Shown piece after piece: positions 1-38,833 of a DNA stretch of 38,833 bases (positions within the stretch are counted from its first letter, which is position 1; each line of letters starts with the position of its first letter). Source of the DNA: Bimuria novae-zelandiae CBS 107.79 (Eukaryota > Ascomycota > Dothideomycetes > Pleosporales > Didymosphaeriaceae); assembly GCA_010015655.1 (NCBI GenBank), contig ML976659.1, forward strand, positions 1,046,058 to 1,084,890. The letters run 5' to 3'. The position numbers were made by a program, and so were the translations under genes. Under the pieces are notes generated by a model. That model was not told the origin of the DNA, ran no database searches, and saw only the letters and a list, made by a program, of their open reading frames with translations.

Positions 1-16
1 GTGCATTGGCTGAATC

Positions 17-35
17 CGTGCATTGGGTGCACGGA
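17..35. repeat. short perfect hairpin at the left edge
   Basis: CCGTGCA and TGCACGG flank a 5-nt loop (TTGGG). Together with the preceding GTGCATTGG it forms a small GC-rich patch exactly where the AT-rich transposase relic stops. It may be the end of another inserted element lying mostly outside the window. Confidence 0.4.
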
Positions 36-45
36 CACGTTATAG

Positions 46-479
46 CGCTCCTTCTCTTAATTAGGTGTTAAAAGAGGTTTCTACCCTAGTCTTTAGCATA
101 AGTAGCTAGCCTTATATATAACATTTTTAAATATAGTTACACTTATTTCTAGTGCAACATCTTTAAAATTGCTATCCTTAATTACCTACTAGCTCTACTT
201 CTCGCGATTGTTGCGTGCAGAGGTGGCAATCGCGATAATGGCATCCTTCTGCTCCTGCGTGAGGATCTCATCTCGACCACGCCCTAGATTGTTCTTGTAT
301 AGTATCTCGTCCCATAAATTGTGTCCTCCTTCTTGCGCTTTTCGTTCAATACGCTGTACGAGCCTTGATAGTCCTAATTGCGTTTGTGGCATGCGTTTTG
401 AGAGGGCATTTGCAGAGGCATATCCATCGCGGGACGCGACGATCGCGCCGACGACAAAGGCGCGCTGTACAGCGCTCAT
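46..479 (-). pseudogene. Tc1-like transposase N-terminal relic, RIP-decayed
   Basis: The minus strand opens with a 94-codon N-terminal region (479 to 195) containing a helix-turn-helix-like stretch (ALSKRMPQTQLGLSRLVQRI) and ends in NNREK followed by stops. The same frame continues from 194 to about 46 as recognisable transposase text (IKD, VIYKASY, KPLLTPN, EKERYN) interrupted by five stops, mostly TAG or TAA where Gln, Trp or Arg codons are expected. This is the pattern left by C-to-T and G-to-A mutation. The DDE catalytic part is absent: at about position 45 the sequence changes abruptly to GC-richer DNA. Tc1/mariner membership is an inference from the motif style. The relic cannot be active. 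Confidence 0.6.
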
Positions 480-1202
480 TTAAGTGCGGGAGGTCTTCAG
501 GGGTTTTATAACTTTATCCTGTTTATATTTATAAGGTTTTCGCCAAGTTATAGAAGCCATAATAAGATGTAGAGGTTAATTATATTAGTCTATCTATAAA
601 GAGTTAATTAAGTTAGTGTTGGCGCGCAATGGCGCACGGGCCTATAACTCAAAAAAAAAACAAGCTTCTTCGTAGGAGGGGAAACGGTGCTGCGTAGCCG
701 CCGGCTGGGAGCGTGCTCGATGGTGATTAGTAGGACGCCCGACCACAATGTTTGGATGCAGTGTAGAGCAGGGGAATTGCAGGATAAGAGGTGAGCTCAA
801 CGATTGGAAAGAGTGTACTCGTGATGCTAGGAAAAGTGGGATGGCGATATCGATATTGCCGCGATAGGCAACGGGGGCGGTTTTGTGTGCTAGTTCGCTG
901 CAAGCCATGGGAGCCATCAACGCAAGGTAGCAGGTGCGTACGCGCGCATTGTGTGCGGCCCCGCGCTGACAGGCGCCTGGGATGGTGTGCGTTGCGCTGT
1001 TGCATAAAAGAGCATTCGCTCCCCGGGTTGGAAACGTCAAGCGGATCTGGATCCACTCCAAACACATTCTTTCCCAACGCCTATTCTTTTTTCCAGGCTG
1101 TGCCTGTCTTCGACTTACCGGTGCTGTGCATCTTTACAACGACTAATAAGACAAACAACTAAATACATCTTACGATCTTAATTATCACCACCCACCGACA
1201 AT
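480..1202. other. intergenic: transposon end, then precursor promoter region
   Basis: 480-640 is AT-rich and looks like the RIP-affected 5' flank of the Tc1-like relic. 641-1202 has normal base composition and leads to the secreted-precursor gene. The overlapping ORFs here show no domain or codon bias. No clear TATA box was seen. The last 60 bases before the ATG are A/C-rich, as is common for fungal 5' UTRs. Confidence 0.5.
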
Positions 1203-1778
1203 ATGCACGCCAGTCTCATCCTCCTCCTTACGTCGCTTGCAGCATCCGTAGTCGCTGCGCCCATGCCAAATGTATCTCCAAGCGAAAGCCCGGTGACGGT
1301 CCGAGAAGTCGACGAAGACGCCATCGTTCCCGCTGTCGAGAATATGAAGCGCGAGATTCTCGAACGATTAGACGCTATCGTCCAACGGTCAACTCCCGAC
1401 GATGACCTACTTGATGCGAACGAGAAGCGCCGACTTGCTTCCGGAGTGATCCCACCTGGATTGAACGCCAGAGACGAAGACAGGCGCGATGCTAATGACA
1501 TCGATGAGGTCGATGTTGAAGAGGTCGAGAAGCGTCGTGTCTACGACCACAGCGGGGTGAACAAGCGTCGGGTCTACGATCACAGCGGCGTCAACAAGCG
1601 TCGGGTCTACGATCACAGCGGCGTCAACAAGCGTCGGGTCTACGATCACAGCGGCGTCAACAAGCGTCGGGTCTATGATCACAGCGGCGTCAACAAGCGT
1701 CGGGTCTACGATCACAGCGGGGTCAACAAGCGCGACGATGATAGCGAGTACACGGCTTCCGAAGTAGACGACGAGTAA
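1203..1778 (+). CDS. secreted Kex2-type tandem-repeat peptide precursor (KEP / UstA-like RiPP candidate)
   Basis: This is a single-exon 191-aa protein. Residues 1-19 form a signal peptide (MHASLILLLTSLAASVVA, then AP). Residues 20-109 are an acidic pro-region with further dibasic sites (MKRE, EKRR, DRRD). Residues 110-175 are six tandem 11-residue units, KR + RVYDHSGVN, closed by KR at 176-177 and an acidic tail. Kex2-like cleavage after each KR would free six identical peptides, RVYDHSGVN or VYDHSGVN if the extra Arg is lost. At DNA level the 33-bp units 2-4 are identical, units 5 and 6 each differ by one base, and unit 1 differs by several. The layout matches known Kex2-processed repeat proteins, including dikaritin precursors (ustiloxin, phomopsin, asperipin), whose cores contain aromatic residues. 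A repellent-like or signalling peptide is an alternative. No tailoring enzyme is adjacent. Gene structure is sure; modification is unproven. Confidence 0.85.
   Translation: MHASLILLLTSLAASVVAAPMPNVSPSESPVTVREVDEDAIVPAVENMKREILERLDAIVQRSTPDDDLLDANEKRRLASGVIPPGLNARDEDRRDANDIDEVDVEEVEKRRVYDHSGVNKRRVYDHSGVNKRRVYDHSGVNKRRVYDHSGVNKRRVYDHSGVNKRRVYDHSGVNKRDDDSEYTASEVDDE
1530..1727 (+). repeat. 6 x 33-bp coding tandem repeat
   Basis: Six in-frame 33-bp units each begin AAGCGTCG and encode KRRVYDHSGVN. Near-identity of the inner units, including synonymous sites, points to recent expansion or homogenisation rather than selection on protein alone. Confidence 0.95.
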
Positions 1779-3678: not shown

Positions 3679-5761
3679 CTAATATGTGAAGAGACGGAAG
3701 AAGTACAAGTTTTCAGGCTTATCATCCTCATTGTCGAAATATACGGTATATGGTATCCTGGCAACGGTCTCCCATGGATAATCAGACAGTATTGCTTCTA
3801 CCGAGAGCCTAGGGTTTGCTCCGACACCCCAGACAAATCTCACGAGTGGACCCCGCAGCGTTGCTCGTCCCCCAGAAACTGACCCGGTAGGATTTCCTTT
3901 GTCGTACAGGGTCGTGCTTGCGTTGACTAGCTGGGCGAGCTCTTCGACATTGGAGGCTCTAGAATGTCTTAAAAAATAGATCTGACCCTCGATCGATGCC
4001 CACAACCACGAAGGTGCTAGGTAGCACCTTGTCCACTGAGATGGGCCAGGAGATGTTATTCATGCAAGTAAGCGCACAAATTTCTCTTCCATAGACTAGC
4101 CAAATATATATCCGGGGAGTATCTATGATGAAGAGTTGCTATGCCAGACAAGGCTATAAGCTTATCGGAAGACTTGGTTAAATGACATCCACTGTAGTTT
4201 TCGACAAGACTATATCATCCGAGGTAGGTTTTGTCCACAGCCAGTATATTTTACGGACGTCCTTGATTGCGTTTAGGTTTTGGCGCACTCCTTTTTGAGA
4301 GGAGTCCGTGAAATAATGGTGTTGGGGGTCCGTGAAATGCTGGTTGGGGGAGTCCAGAAGGGAACAATTCGCAAGCTTCGGTCTCGTCACATTCCCAAGC
4401 GATTTATGACGAAGTAAGATAAAGAATATGGCGGCAAAGTATGCGTTCCTGAAGAATCCAGTCTCTTTTATTTATGGGGGTATTAAGTATGAGCGACTTC
4501 TAAAAGTCTGCATCGACGATTTTGGCACTAGCTATTTGGGAGGTGAGCGGGTGTTTAACCTGTGACGCAGAGCATAGATCAGCAGGATGGTTACACATGC
4601 ATGAGATTGTTATTCACCTAAAGGGCAATGGGTACTCAGTTCTTTGAGCATTATCCAGCTTTCAAGAATCCGCGCACCTTCTGTATTGTAAATGGCTGCC
4701 TTCTAAAAGAGCGATCAGATGAGAGGCCATTCTCCAATGCTCGCGTATGAGTATCGAAGATCGTCATCATCGCATTTTGATATACGTCTTTCATCGTCGA
4801 AGCTTCGTGTAGCCAATCTTCTTCCGAATCCTGTATAATACACAAAGAGTCAATCCAGAGGTAGTTGTATCCAAGACCGAGGGTAACACGGGCGGCATCC
4901 AGGAAAGTTTCGGGCAAGGAATTGCTTGGGATCTGCGCTTCAAAGGAAGCTATGTTGCGACTACGAAGTGTTACAATGTCGCATGGGCCCCACCGATGGC
5001 TCAAAGCAAAGTATTCGCCTGTTGGATGTTCGCTGGTGCACTGTACTAAGCGCACATTCATCTCCGTAGTGGCTTCTTCGATTCTCAGAAGTCGCAAAGG
5101 GCACCATTGCTGTGGCTCAAGATTACAAGTAGAATGTTGATTTTGGCAATTGTGGAGCCAATTTCGAGCGAAGTCTAAGCTGTCTGCTAAGCTGGAGTTT
5201 CGCGTTTTCATGACAGAAGACAGCCGACGTTCATGTTCACCTATAATGCGTGAGATCATAGTGACCATCGAGGTTTTCCGAGATAATCCTACCAGACTGG
5301 GCTGTGATCTCTATGCGATCAACCCGTAGCTATGTTTCAAAGATGAACCCTTTGGCTGTGGTAGTAGTCAGGCGGAAGGCGGCCGGCCAGTTGTCCAAAT
5401 CCATTTCAAGATGAGCGATCGAAGACCCTGTATTGCCGTCTGTGATGCCCAGATTTTCCCACCCCAACGCAAAGGAGCTACAAATGTAGCAACCATGCTC
5501 TGCCGATTCTGGTAAATCGCTGATCCGGTCGTAATGAACCCAAACGTTGCGCTTCCCATCAAATATGAGCTCACCAATTTCGCGCGCTGAGAGAAGCATC
5601 AGCTCGCACCTGGTGCAAAGCTGATCCAGGATACCTAGCGATGTGGCTGGGACAGAAAACATGGTAGAAGATGCACCGTAAAACTTCAACAGGCTGCAGT
5701 TGGAGCATGTCAGTTGAATGTGCTTGCCTCGAGGCTGAGCCATAACCCCTGCTAACGGCAA
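3679..5761 (-). pseudogene. HET-domain (heterokaryon incompatibility) gene, broken
   Basis: The minus-strand reading recovers a HET protein in order. The N-terminal part holds CSNC and CTRC motifs (from 5743 or 5761). After a likely 52-nt intron (5241-5292) the HET core follows: FALSHRWG, then TFLDAARVTLGLGYNYLWID, SLCIIQDSEEDW and DVYQNA. Further on come WILQERIL and IAWECDETEA near 4380-4465, then VENYSGCHLTKSSDKLIALSG, and the C-terminal APSWLWASIEG ending at 3679. The frame is broken by stops at 5330-5332, 4651-4653, 4404-4406, 4251-4253, 4215-4217 and 4056-4058, and shifts near 4050. Several stops fit CAA/CAG-to-TAA/TAG or TGG-to-TGA changes, as RIP makes. Intact HET proteins trigger cell death on non-self fusion; this copy should encode none. 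About 190 bp (4465-4650) has no recognisable match. Confidence 0.75.
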
Positions 5762-33441: not shown

Positions 33442-34480
33442 TAAACTATTTAGCGGTATAGCTGTACCCTATTATCTATTTTTCTCGACGGAGCCTACAG
33501 TCCATAACTTAACGGGAACAGCATAATATACCATAAACACTCTTATACTCTAGCCGCGCCGTTGGTCTTAGCTTCTAATTTCAATTTGCTAGAGGCTATA
33601 GAATGCATTTTACTCAACACTTTCGTACATCGATAATATAATTCGTAGGCGAAGACCAACGGCGCAGCGGAAGTACGCCAATATTTATGATATGAACATG
33701 ATTGCAACCTTCCCAAACAAGGGCATTGGTCACGCTAGTTGGTTTGCTGAACAGCCCGCAAGCCACGTTCCTGTTTTCTCAACCCAAGCTCTTCATCAAA
33801 GCACGCTACCGCTTCGACACTTCCGCCTCGCGCTCACGCGCATTAAGCCCTACTCAAGTGTCCTCTTTGGTAGGCCTCAGCCTTACACACCGTACATACC
33901 ACCCCCCAATAATAAAAGCAGCCTCGCAGGACAAAAGACACCAGCAATATTCTCCAGCCACGCCATTTCTGCATCGTCACAACGCGTAGGGAGAATATCT
34001 AACCAGTTGCACTCGGCGACGCATCAATACTACAATGTATAAATCAGAATTTGCTCTATACCAGATCTAAACGCTGTGTTAGAATCACTGCTATCAGTCT
34101 TTATTATGTTGGATGAATCTTGATGTCGTCTGCAGCTTCTCGAAGCCCGAGCCACAACAGAACAAAGTATAAAGACGCTATATTTTTTCAAAACGTAAAA
34201 GATTTAAAAGTTAAGACTTGGCGGGTGGACCACAGAATCAGTCTATTACAATGGAAGTTAATGCTGAGCGTTAGAGTGTTGAGGATCCGTTGCTCTCACA
34301 CCACTCGCTTACTTATCTTCTAGCCCACCCCACTAAGCCTAAAGCCCAAGCCCCACTCACCCACTCGTCCCACTTGGTCAAAGCGTCCCCTCCATAACCT
34401 TTTCTCTCGCCCAACATTGCCAATATTGTGTGTGTATATATATTTTGAATTTGCTTATTCCGTCATCAACAACATCTCCA
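33442..34480. other. intergenic with a long-arm hairpin and two weak ORFs
   Basis: An inverted repeat (CCGCGCCGTTGGTCTT at 33553-33568; AAGACCAACGGCGCAGCGG at 33652-33670) encloses about 85 nt. Two overlapping plus-strand ORFs follow (33692-34042, 116 codons; 33702-33989, 95 codons), neither with a domain; at most one could be real. The later part is AT-rich and precedes the tRNA gene. Confidence 0.4.
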
Positions 34481-34568
34481 GCGGCGGTAGCTCAGTGGTA
34501 GAGCAGCGGGCTGCAGTCCCCAAACTCGTGGTTCCTGAAGGTCACCAGTTCAATTCTGGTTCGCCGCT
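34481..34568 (+). tRNA. tRNA-Cys(GCA) with a 16-nt intron
   Basis: The acceptor stem GCGGCGG pairs with TCGCCGC, followed by discriminator T. The D arm is GCTC..GAGC (A box TAGCTCAGTGGTAGAGC). Anticodon GCA lies at 34513-34515, with an intron after position 37 (34517-34532). The T arm ACCAG TTCAATT CTGGT carries the B box GTTCAATTC. Four of five anticodon-stem pairs form, one as G-T. The mature length of 72 nt suits tRNA-Cys. A T-rich Pol III terminator follows at about 34576-34590. Confidence 0.88.
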
Positions 34569-34965
34569 TTCATTTTGTTTGTTTTTGGCGCCCTCTTAAC
34601 CCTAATCAAGCACTCACAGTATCTCGCACAGTCGTGCGTCCTACTGCGTAAAACCGATCTTCTTTATCATTGCGTGGTAGGTGGTAGAGGAAGAAGTTTA
34701 TCATATCTTAGCTTGGCGCAATTATCGTCGTTTGCTTAGTGCGCGGGTGAAATAGTTTGTCATTTACTGTCTTTAACAACCTTAAAAAAAATAATGCAAC
34801 ACACAGCAACTAAGAAACACATAATGATTCAAGCGAGCTAGCCCGTAATCACGAAGTACTCTAATGCAAATTTACACTAACGTACTCTACAGGCTTTTAG
34901 GCCACCTATGTTACTAACGTAGTTGCGCTTTTCGTCCTCCCTAAGTAGTATATCCTTAAGTATAT
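34569..34965. other. intergenic
   Basis: 397 bp between the tRNA terminator and the piggyBac-like element; no gene was seen. Confidence 0.45.
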
Positions 34966-38644: not shown

Positions 38645-38833
38645 TTAGTCATCGTTGCCTTGGACCTCAGGATCAGCCTCGCGACGTTCGTTACTTGGAG
38701 GACCGGTGCTAGGTAGGGCATCAGGATCCGCCTCGCGACGCTGGTTGAACCGCAGAGTGTCGCGCTGGTTGAACCGCAGAGTGTCGCGCTGGTTGAACCG
38801 CAGAGTGTCGCGCTGGTTGAACCGCAGAGTGTC
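38645..38833 (-). CDS. tandem-repeat peptide precursor, 3' part only (runs off the window)
   Basis: The minus strand is open from the right edge to a TAA at 38645-38647 (62 codons, no Met inside the window). From the edge it encodes four copies of DTLRFNQR. Then come READPDALPSTGPPSNER and READPEVQGNDD before the stop. The RR junctions (NQRRE, SNERRE) are possible Kex2-type sites, and the READP spacers resemble the dipeptidyl-trimmed spacers seen in fungal alpha-pheromone precursors. The 24-bp units are perfect copies. An alpha-pheromone precursor, a KEP/RiPP precursor or another repeat protein are all possible; the start and signal peptide lie outside. It is a real coding frame, judging by period and codon phase. 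Confidence 0.65.
   Translation of the reverse strand, partial: DTLRFNQRDTLRFNQRDTLRFNQRDTLRFNQRREADPDALPSTGPPSNERREADPEVQGNDD
38739..38833 (-). repeat. 4 x 24-bp coding tandem repeat, cut by the window edge
   Basis: Perfect 24-bp units containing CTGGTTGAACCGCAGAGTGT on the plus strand; each encodes DTLRFNQR on the minus strand. The number of copies beyond the edge is unknown. Confidence 0.95.

Follow-up and report, generated by a model that had tools for sequence, protein, structure and literature searches.

The closest described systems to the gene analysed here are the fungal Kex2-processed repeat proteins (KEPs), precursors with at least three identical or nearly identical repeats bounded by dibasic sites. 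The main text of one survey counts 7878 KEPs, 74% of which have neither a UstYa neighbour nor a pheromone annotation (PMC7329392). In the surveys of this class (PMC7329392 and PMC6339444), strains with several paralogs of a single KEP type occur. A similar layout is seen in the dikaritin precursors (UstA, PhomA, asperipin) and the epichloecyclin precursor GigA, which combine a signal peptide with KR-bounded, often Tyr-containing repeats, and in the ascomycete alpha-factor or alpha-pheromone precursors, where X-Ala/X-Pro dipeptides after KR are the signature of Ste13 (PMC6339444). The main text of the same survey describes the peptides of the Kex2/Ste13 pheromone route as unmodified, and does not predict Ste13 to process the ustiloxin and phomopsin precursors. 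In the consulted part of PMC9769878, linear KEP peptides were detected by mass spectrometry, kep knock-outs were without phenotype, and KEPs were also expressed in a laboratory strain of Pichia.

We analysed a window, a continuous stretch of 38,833 nucleotides, from the 1,612,603-base contig C4 of Bimuria novae-zelandiae, whose genome comprises 77.4 Mb in 191 contigs. A precursor gene in this window resembles the KEPs without UstYa neighbours in its signal-type start, pro-region, identical KR-separated repeats and lack of a nearby UstYa match. It is unlike the surveyed KEPs in that the Bimuria family has a leader and cores of its own and one upstream block common to its five copies. Neither Bimuria nor Lentithecium, another host of the family, is named in the main texts of PMC6339444 and PMC7329392; Paraphaeosphaeria, a further host, is named once in the main text of the latter, under a mostly UstYa-linked type (45 of its 49 KEPs have such a neighbour). 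No description of the family was found in the open-access literature and the main texts of the surveys; the survey supplements may list individual members. Within the same literature no related paper was found for the core strings VYDHSG, YSGPSANY and VFAPKGND, nor any linking B. novae-zelandiae to RiPPs, and the consulted part of PMC7902709, a paper on this fungus, holds nothing on the window gene.

The precursor and its relatives

The gene occupies positions 1203-1778 of the window (+ strand) as one uninterrupted ORF of 191 amino acids with its own stop. It opens with a signal-peptide-type N-terminus, MHASLILLLTSLAASVVAA (1203-1259, +; cleavage site set by eye), recognized by its hydropathy (mean Kyte-Doolittle value 2.45 over residues 5-19) and by its conserved start, the first seven residues being invariant across an alignment of eight precursors. 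The N-terminus of P0008, a relative from Paraphaeosphaeria minitans, reads MHAGLIF, and two gene models, P0010 and P0011, are without the signal part. Alignment and charge count delimit an acidic pro-region with KR at its end (1260-1535, +), residues 21-111 containing 25 D/E against 13 K/R. Comparison with the paralogs picks out within it a conserved single segment after KR, RLASGVIPPGLN (1431-1466, +), which has a closing KR in the paralogs on contigs C27 and C28 and is not cleanly closed in the window copy. Then come six RVYDHSGVN-KR units of 33 bp apiece (1536-1733, +; starts at 1536, 1569, 1602, 1635, 1668 and 1701), the peptide being the same in 6/6 despite some synonymous differences; Tandem Repeats Finder reports the 33-bp unit in 6.2 copies at 1530-1732 with 95% match. 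As units 2-4 are identical in DNA, part of the array is young. The gene closes with an acidic 14-residue tail, DDDSEYTASEVDDE, of which eight residues are acidic and none basic, and the stop (1734-1778, +). When residues 21-191 were shuffled 20,000 times, no shuffled sequence contained even two identical dibasic-bounded segments of 4-12 amino acids. The ORF analysis thus agrees with the original prediction of a signal-type start, an acidic pro-region, six KR-bounded copies and an acidic tail, and its KEP-type assignment is supported by the six repeats and the signal-type start. Its description of the product as a nonapeptide is right for RVYDHSGVN between KR sites and wrong for VYDHSGVN, which is an octapeptide.

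Four paralogs lie on four other contigs, giving five family loci in the genome, which we denote by their contigs as C4 (the window gene), C28, C27, C160 and C49. No sixth locus was found in B. novae-zelandiae when the best candidates from searches with the relatives P0006, P0008 and P0011 were scored: P0006 and P0008 each recovered the five known loci and one weak match (E 0.97 and 0.59, respectively), and P0011 gave weak matches in 2/5 loci alone (best E 0.18). In the protein database a single-sequence query gave six matches and a query with the eight-sequence alignment gave 11, the window gene's own protein counted (7996 candidates scored). The named hosts are B. novae-zelandiae, Lentithecium fluviatile, P. 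minitans, P. sporulosa, Didymosphaeria variabile and Paraconiothyrium brasiliense, joined by two more assemblies (proteins P0005 and P0006); all named hosts belong to the Didymosphaeriaceae, with the sole exception of Lentithecium (Lentitheciaceae). Four paralogs and relatives in five other named species support the gene at 1203-1778. No Pfam model reaches its curated cut-off on the window precursor, six matches being sub-threshold, and a sequence search of solved structures returned none at E up to 1. To the extent that Pfam provides no match above cut-off, the suggestion of a candidate new family has so far been borne out.

The homologs with variable cores that the original prediction proposed to look for exist, with a conserved leader and repeated cores that are unlike. 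The eight-sequence alignment has 24 invariant columns, all of them in residues 1-65 of the window protein; an alignment of 12 sequences, in which two of the added models (P0010 and P0011) have no start, has three. RVYDHSGVN is present in six units at C4, three in L. fluviatile and one at C28, and single units read RTYDGKGVN in D. variabile and RFYDHDKVN in P. minitans. R[EQ]YSGPSANY accounts for five units at C27 and four at C28, the P. minitans version having I or F in place of S. There are five [VI]FAP[SL]AN[DE] units at C160 and nine VF[AN]P[SK]GND units at C49, with two VFAPKGND units in P. sporulosa, while R[NG]L[IV]SPTSNY units occur in P0005 and KGYAGSVYD-like units in P0006 and P. brasiliense. 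P0008, with 308 amino acids, combines in one chain units resembling four core types that are found apart elsewhere, a mix that would be in keeping with separate later amplification of the units of an older, mixed precursor. Because C28 holds one RVYDHSGVN unit together with four R[EQ]YSGPSANY units, we infer that the released peptide changes between paralogs mainly through the amplification of a different unit, not through gradual drift of one.

Selection on the repeats and their predicted processing

The nearly fixed repeat sequences are under strong purifying selection, and the short peptides are what selection keeps. For units picked by amino-acid likeness, strongly diverged ones not being counted, dN/dS between repeat units lies at 0.00-0.10 over the five arrays. 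The means between units are pS 0.31, pN 0.000 and dN/dS 0.00 at C4; pS 0.33, pN 0.017 and dN/dS 0.04 at C27 (0.06 with the spacer included); pS 0.43, pN 0.021 and dN/dS 0.035 at C28, which holds further, unlike KR-bounded segments beside the counted units; and pS 0.64, pN 0.051 and dN/dS 0.04 at C49. At C160 the final 8 codons of each unit give pS 0.56, pN 0.072 and dN/dS 0.07, and the whole 13-codon unit gives pS 0.69, pN 0.167 and dN/dS 0.10. The RVYDHSGVN unit of C28 differs from each of the six units of C4 by 5-6 synonymous and 0 non-synonymous changes per 9 codons. In neutral simulations with the number of changes kept as observed, no run gave an equally conserved outcome, neither among the 20,000 made for each of two C4/C28 unit pairs nor among the 5,000 made for each of three pairs of C49 units. 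Copying of DNA between units would erase synonymous differences as well, so it is selection that keeps the peptides alike. The leader is likewise under purifying selection, with dN/dS of 0.12-0.46 over ten paralog pairs.

The paralogs also bear on the N-terminus of the mature peptide, which the original prediction had left open on account of the extra Arg after each KR. At C28, RVYDHSGVN stands as KR-DA-RVYDHSGVN-KR, and the decapeptide repeats of C27 and C28 take the form KR-(DA, EA, EPEA or EAEA)-R[EQ]YSGPSANY, with KR or RR behind them. Spacers of the same type occur in P0008, and one C27 unit has EAET, which Ste13 might not trim. The window array itself has no Ste13 spacer, so that the argument draws on the paralogs; the repeats of C160, C49, P0006 and P0011 are also without X-Ala/X-Pro spacers. 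Ste13-type trimming in C28 would leave Arg as residue 1, and this favours RVYDHSGVN over VYDHSGVN as the likely product of the window gene. The calculated [M+H]+ values are 1046.5014 for RVYDHSGVN ([M+2H]2+ 523.7543) and 890.4003 for VYDHSGVN, and, for candidate peptides of other members, 1142.5225 for RQYSGPSANY and 1100.5847 for RPVFAPKGND. The matter of the N-terminus is thereby largely answered by the C27 and C28 spacers, with Arg first, the processing step being a predicted one. The genome encodes members of the proprotein-convertase and DPP-IV families: one gene has both Peptidase_S8 and P_proprotein, and there are three matches to DPPIV_N, of which two, scanned further, come with Peptidase_S9.

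We consider it probable that the window gene is one of five paralogous precursors that are secreted and cut by Kex2 and Kex1 to six copies of a likely linear, unmodified RVYDHSGVN. The precursor would be exported via its signal peptide and cleaved by Kex2 and Kex1 into the six copies; in the paralogs a Ste13-type dipeptidyl peptidase would trim the X-Ala/X-Pro spacers, C28 thereby yielding the same peptide. RVYDHSGVN would stay linear and unmodified, and the peptides may act outside the cell as signals, received by the fungus itself or by a partner organism. That selection keeps them nearly fixed suggests that they are likely unmodified peptide signals. Secretion, cleavage, lack of modification and a signalling role are all read from sequence. 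We class the family not as a RiPP but as a putative new KEP family, which would work in the manner of KEPs of the linear, pheromone type.

Alternative readings of the repeated peptides

The peptides could instead be effectors aimed at a host or competitor (plant-peptide mimics or antimicrobials) and not signals among the fungus's own cells; this departs from the explanation given above in the target alone, the two overlap, and we regard it as unlikely while giving it some weight. It would accommodate both the confinement of the named matches to the Didymosphaeriaceae and Lentithecium and the unlike cores of the paralogs. There is also a likeness to plant SGP peptides (PIP, CLE, IDA), in that RLASG opens the pro-region segment and SGPS lies within RQYSGPSANY. 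PIP-like plant peptides have a C-terminus of the SGPSxxGxGH type, which is absent from RLASGVIPPGLN. What this segment shares with plant AtPIP1, RLASGPSPRGRGH (as given in the consulted part of PMC10704477), is RLASG and 7/12 ungapped positions only, a match that was spotted by eye among many possible peptides and may be due to chance. Furthermore, the segment is not KR-closed in the window copy and departs in P. minitans (RLAYG). The fungal precursor layout and the different C-terminus set the family apart from the plant SGP peptides.

It is improbable, in our assessment, that the window gene is a dikaritin-like RiPP precursor, with UstYa oxidases from other parts of the genome cross-linking its Tyr cores. 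Apart from the KEP layout, such a fate would suit the Tyr of RVYDHSGVN and R[EQ]YSGPSANY; Tyr is also present in the C160 unit (GYPVFAPSAND), but the repeated core of C49, DGGRPVFAPKGND, is without it. According to the main text of PMC7329392, Tyr occurs in 65.6% of repeats when the KEP has a UstYa neighbour and in 38.2% when it has none. A dikaritin would be expected to have a UstYa (DUF3328) gene beside its precursor and, as for ustiloxin and phomopsin, a tyrosinase gene within the cluster. Exon-wise searches, which could miss an intron-split gene, yielded 53 UstYa (PF11807) and 32 tyrosinase (PF00264) matches in the genome, and UstYa enzymes from this set could act in trans. None of the UstYa matches is on C4 (the whole 1.61-Mb contig, although part of the flank left of the window could not be read), C28 or C160, and the nearest are about 360 kb away on C27 and about 279 kb away on C49, while tyrosinase matches number 0 on the five family contigs. 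No locus has a UstYa match closer than 278 kb, so that the dikaritin-type RiPP of the original prediction is not supported, and the search for UstYa and tyrosinase genes that it had suggested for the contig gave no supporting match nearby on C4 or on the four paralog contigs. As about 50 UstYa matches are spread over 77 Mb, five loci with none close by would be expected by chance; this absence counts against cluster membership but is silent on enzymes acting in trans. The Ste13-type spacers of C27 and C28 are a further point of difference from UstA, PhomA, asperipin and GigA.

As a positive control, 30 UstYa loci from among the 53 matches were scanned for KR-bounded repeats over about 1.5 kb on either side, and at 2/30 a KR-repeat ORF unrelated to the family lay no more than 1.5 kb from the match, so that other repeat ORFs of the same genome, unlike the family studied here, do adjoin UstYa matches. 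These two ORFs, L008:3309-3635 (+) on C13 and L013:2919-3308 (+) on C6, lie ~1 kb from the UstYa matches, have the repeat units GGSYFRSEGVPVGFKTN and EGFSKIIY, and are candidate dikaritin-type precursors of B. novae-zelandiae. The UstYa frame at L008 is confirmed by Pfam; the longest frame at L013 has no Pfam match, UstYa being indicated there by the genome search only. In the same searches, UstYa matches on C184 and C149 and tyrosinase matches on C162 and C170 have equal or nearly equal scores, as if each pair had a duplicated stretch in common.

We think it very unlikely that the family comprises alpha-type mating pheromone precursors. The pro-region, the KR sites and the DA/EA/EPEA/EAEA spacers are like those of alpha-factor (PMC6339444, main text), although the Ste13 dipeptides after KR precede the repeats of C27, C28 and P0008 and not those of the window gene, C160 or C49. 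Unlike alpha-pheromone precursors, none of the 12 family proteins contains the Pleosporales core PYG[LM]P[IV]G given in the main text of that survey, and a single genome carries five paralogs with unlike cores. Finally, a meaningless expanding minisatellite within a secreted protein, as might be imagined from a 33-bp tandem repeat with three DNA-identical units, is extremely improbable against the many synonymous and few protein differences between units, the retention of the same peptide at C28 and the constraint on the leaders.

Evolution of the loci and biological meaning

Genome search and an identity profile delimit a conserved upstream block of 430 bp, presumably the promoter region (673-1102, +), which has five copies in the genome, each ~100 bp upstream of a family member's start codon and, outside the window, 91-96% identical to the window copy. 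In a multiple alignment, pairwise identity is 92-98% in the upstream region against 79-98% in the first 165 coding bases. Upstream site patterns group C27 with C160 by 13 sites, all other pairings together having 6, and the leader groups C28 with C27 by 6 sites and C160 with C49 by 8. C4 and C49 share 99-100% identity over two steps, from about -118 to +18; over the 70 columns beyond, identity falls to 74%. The conflicting site patterns and this drop fit an exchange between copies, by gene conversion or crossover, whose boundary lies close to the start codon; regulatory conservation may add to the likeness of the upstream block.

At C27, C28 and C49 the KEP gene is followed downstream by a DUF3176 match, and C160 has a short match to that block; the block was therefore duplicated as a segment. 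We rejected DUF3176 as a partner of the KEP since it is not beside the window copy, the nearest on C4 being about 53 kb away; it appears to be a passenger of the duplicated block. At C27 a DDE_3 transposase ORF lies between the KEP gene and the DUF3176 match. The first 668 positions of the window (1-668) are the right end of a ~18.75-kb insertion with TA at its junctions and inverted ends (CGAAGAAGCTYGTTTTT...). The insertion is present at C4 and lacking from the four sister loci; its end is 534 bp upstream of the ATG, and it leaves the conserved upstream block untouched. A 94-aa ORF at its right edge, which is the left edge of the window, gave no match in a Pfam scan; it is reminiscent of a Tc1-type transposase. 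Elsewhere in the window are a HET-domain ORF at 4651-5268 (-), which is the Pfam-matched ORF closest to the KEP gene on its right side, a tRNA-Cys (gca) predicted by ARAGORN at 34480-34569 (+), and a perfect 24-bp tandem repeat in four copies from 38739 to the right edge at 38833, one frame of which reads VSRWLNRR.

The leader of the L. fluviatile protein (P0002) is identical to that of the window protein at 88/91 positions, and its core peptide is the same; the corresponding values are 43/59 for D. variabile (a model without start) and, for the paralogs from the same genome, 59/91 for C28 and 59/89 for C27. A transcription-factor gene in the window shows 88% identity to its D. variabile and 84% to its P. 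minitans counterpart, and no Lentithecium sequence appears among the matches listed for it (best 120 of 1141). Transfer or contamination is a possible source of the likeness between the Lentithecium and Bimuria leaders.

It is conceivable, though we put it forward as a doubtful proposition, that the family operates as a swappable cassette, in which promoter and leader would be kept alike at the five loci by exchange with a breakpoint at the start codon, and amplification of a different pre-existing unit would swap the payload. The resulting lineage-specific, sequence-fixed linear peptides would serve as recognition signals or plant-hormone mimics. What is new here, and well supported if modest in kind, is a set of short, strongly selected peptides that come with one leader and one upstream block and with changing payloads. 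Thousands of KEPs have been surveyed, most of them without known function; in this case the DNA itself shows that the peptide is under selection. Comparison of the paralogs favours one mature N-terminus and so narrows the products to a handful of exact candidate peptides, and the family allows the change of payload to be studied apart from leader and promoter. The case also speaks against treating every Tyr-containing KEP as a cyclic RiPP.
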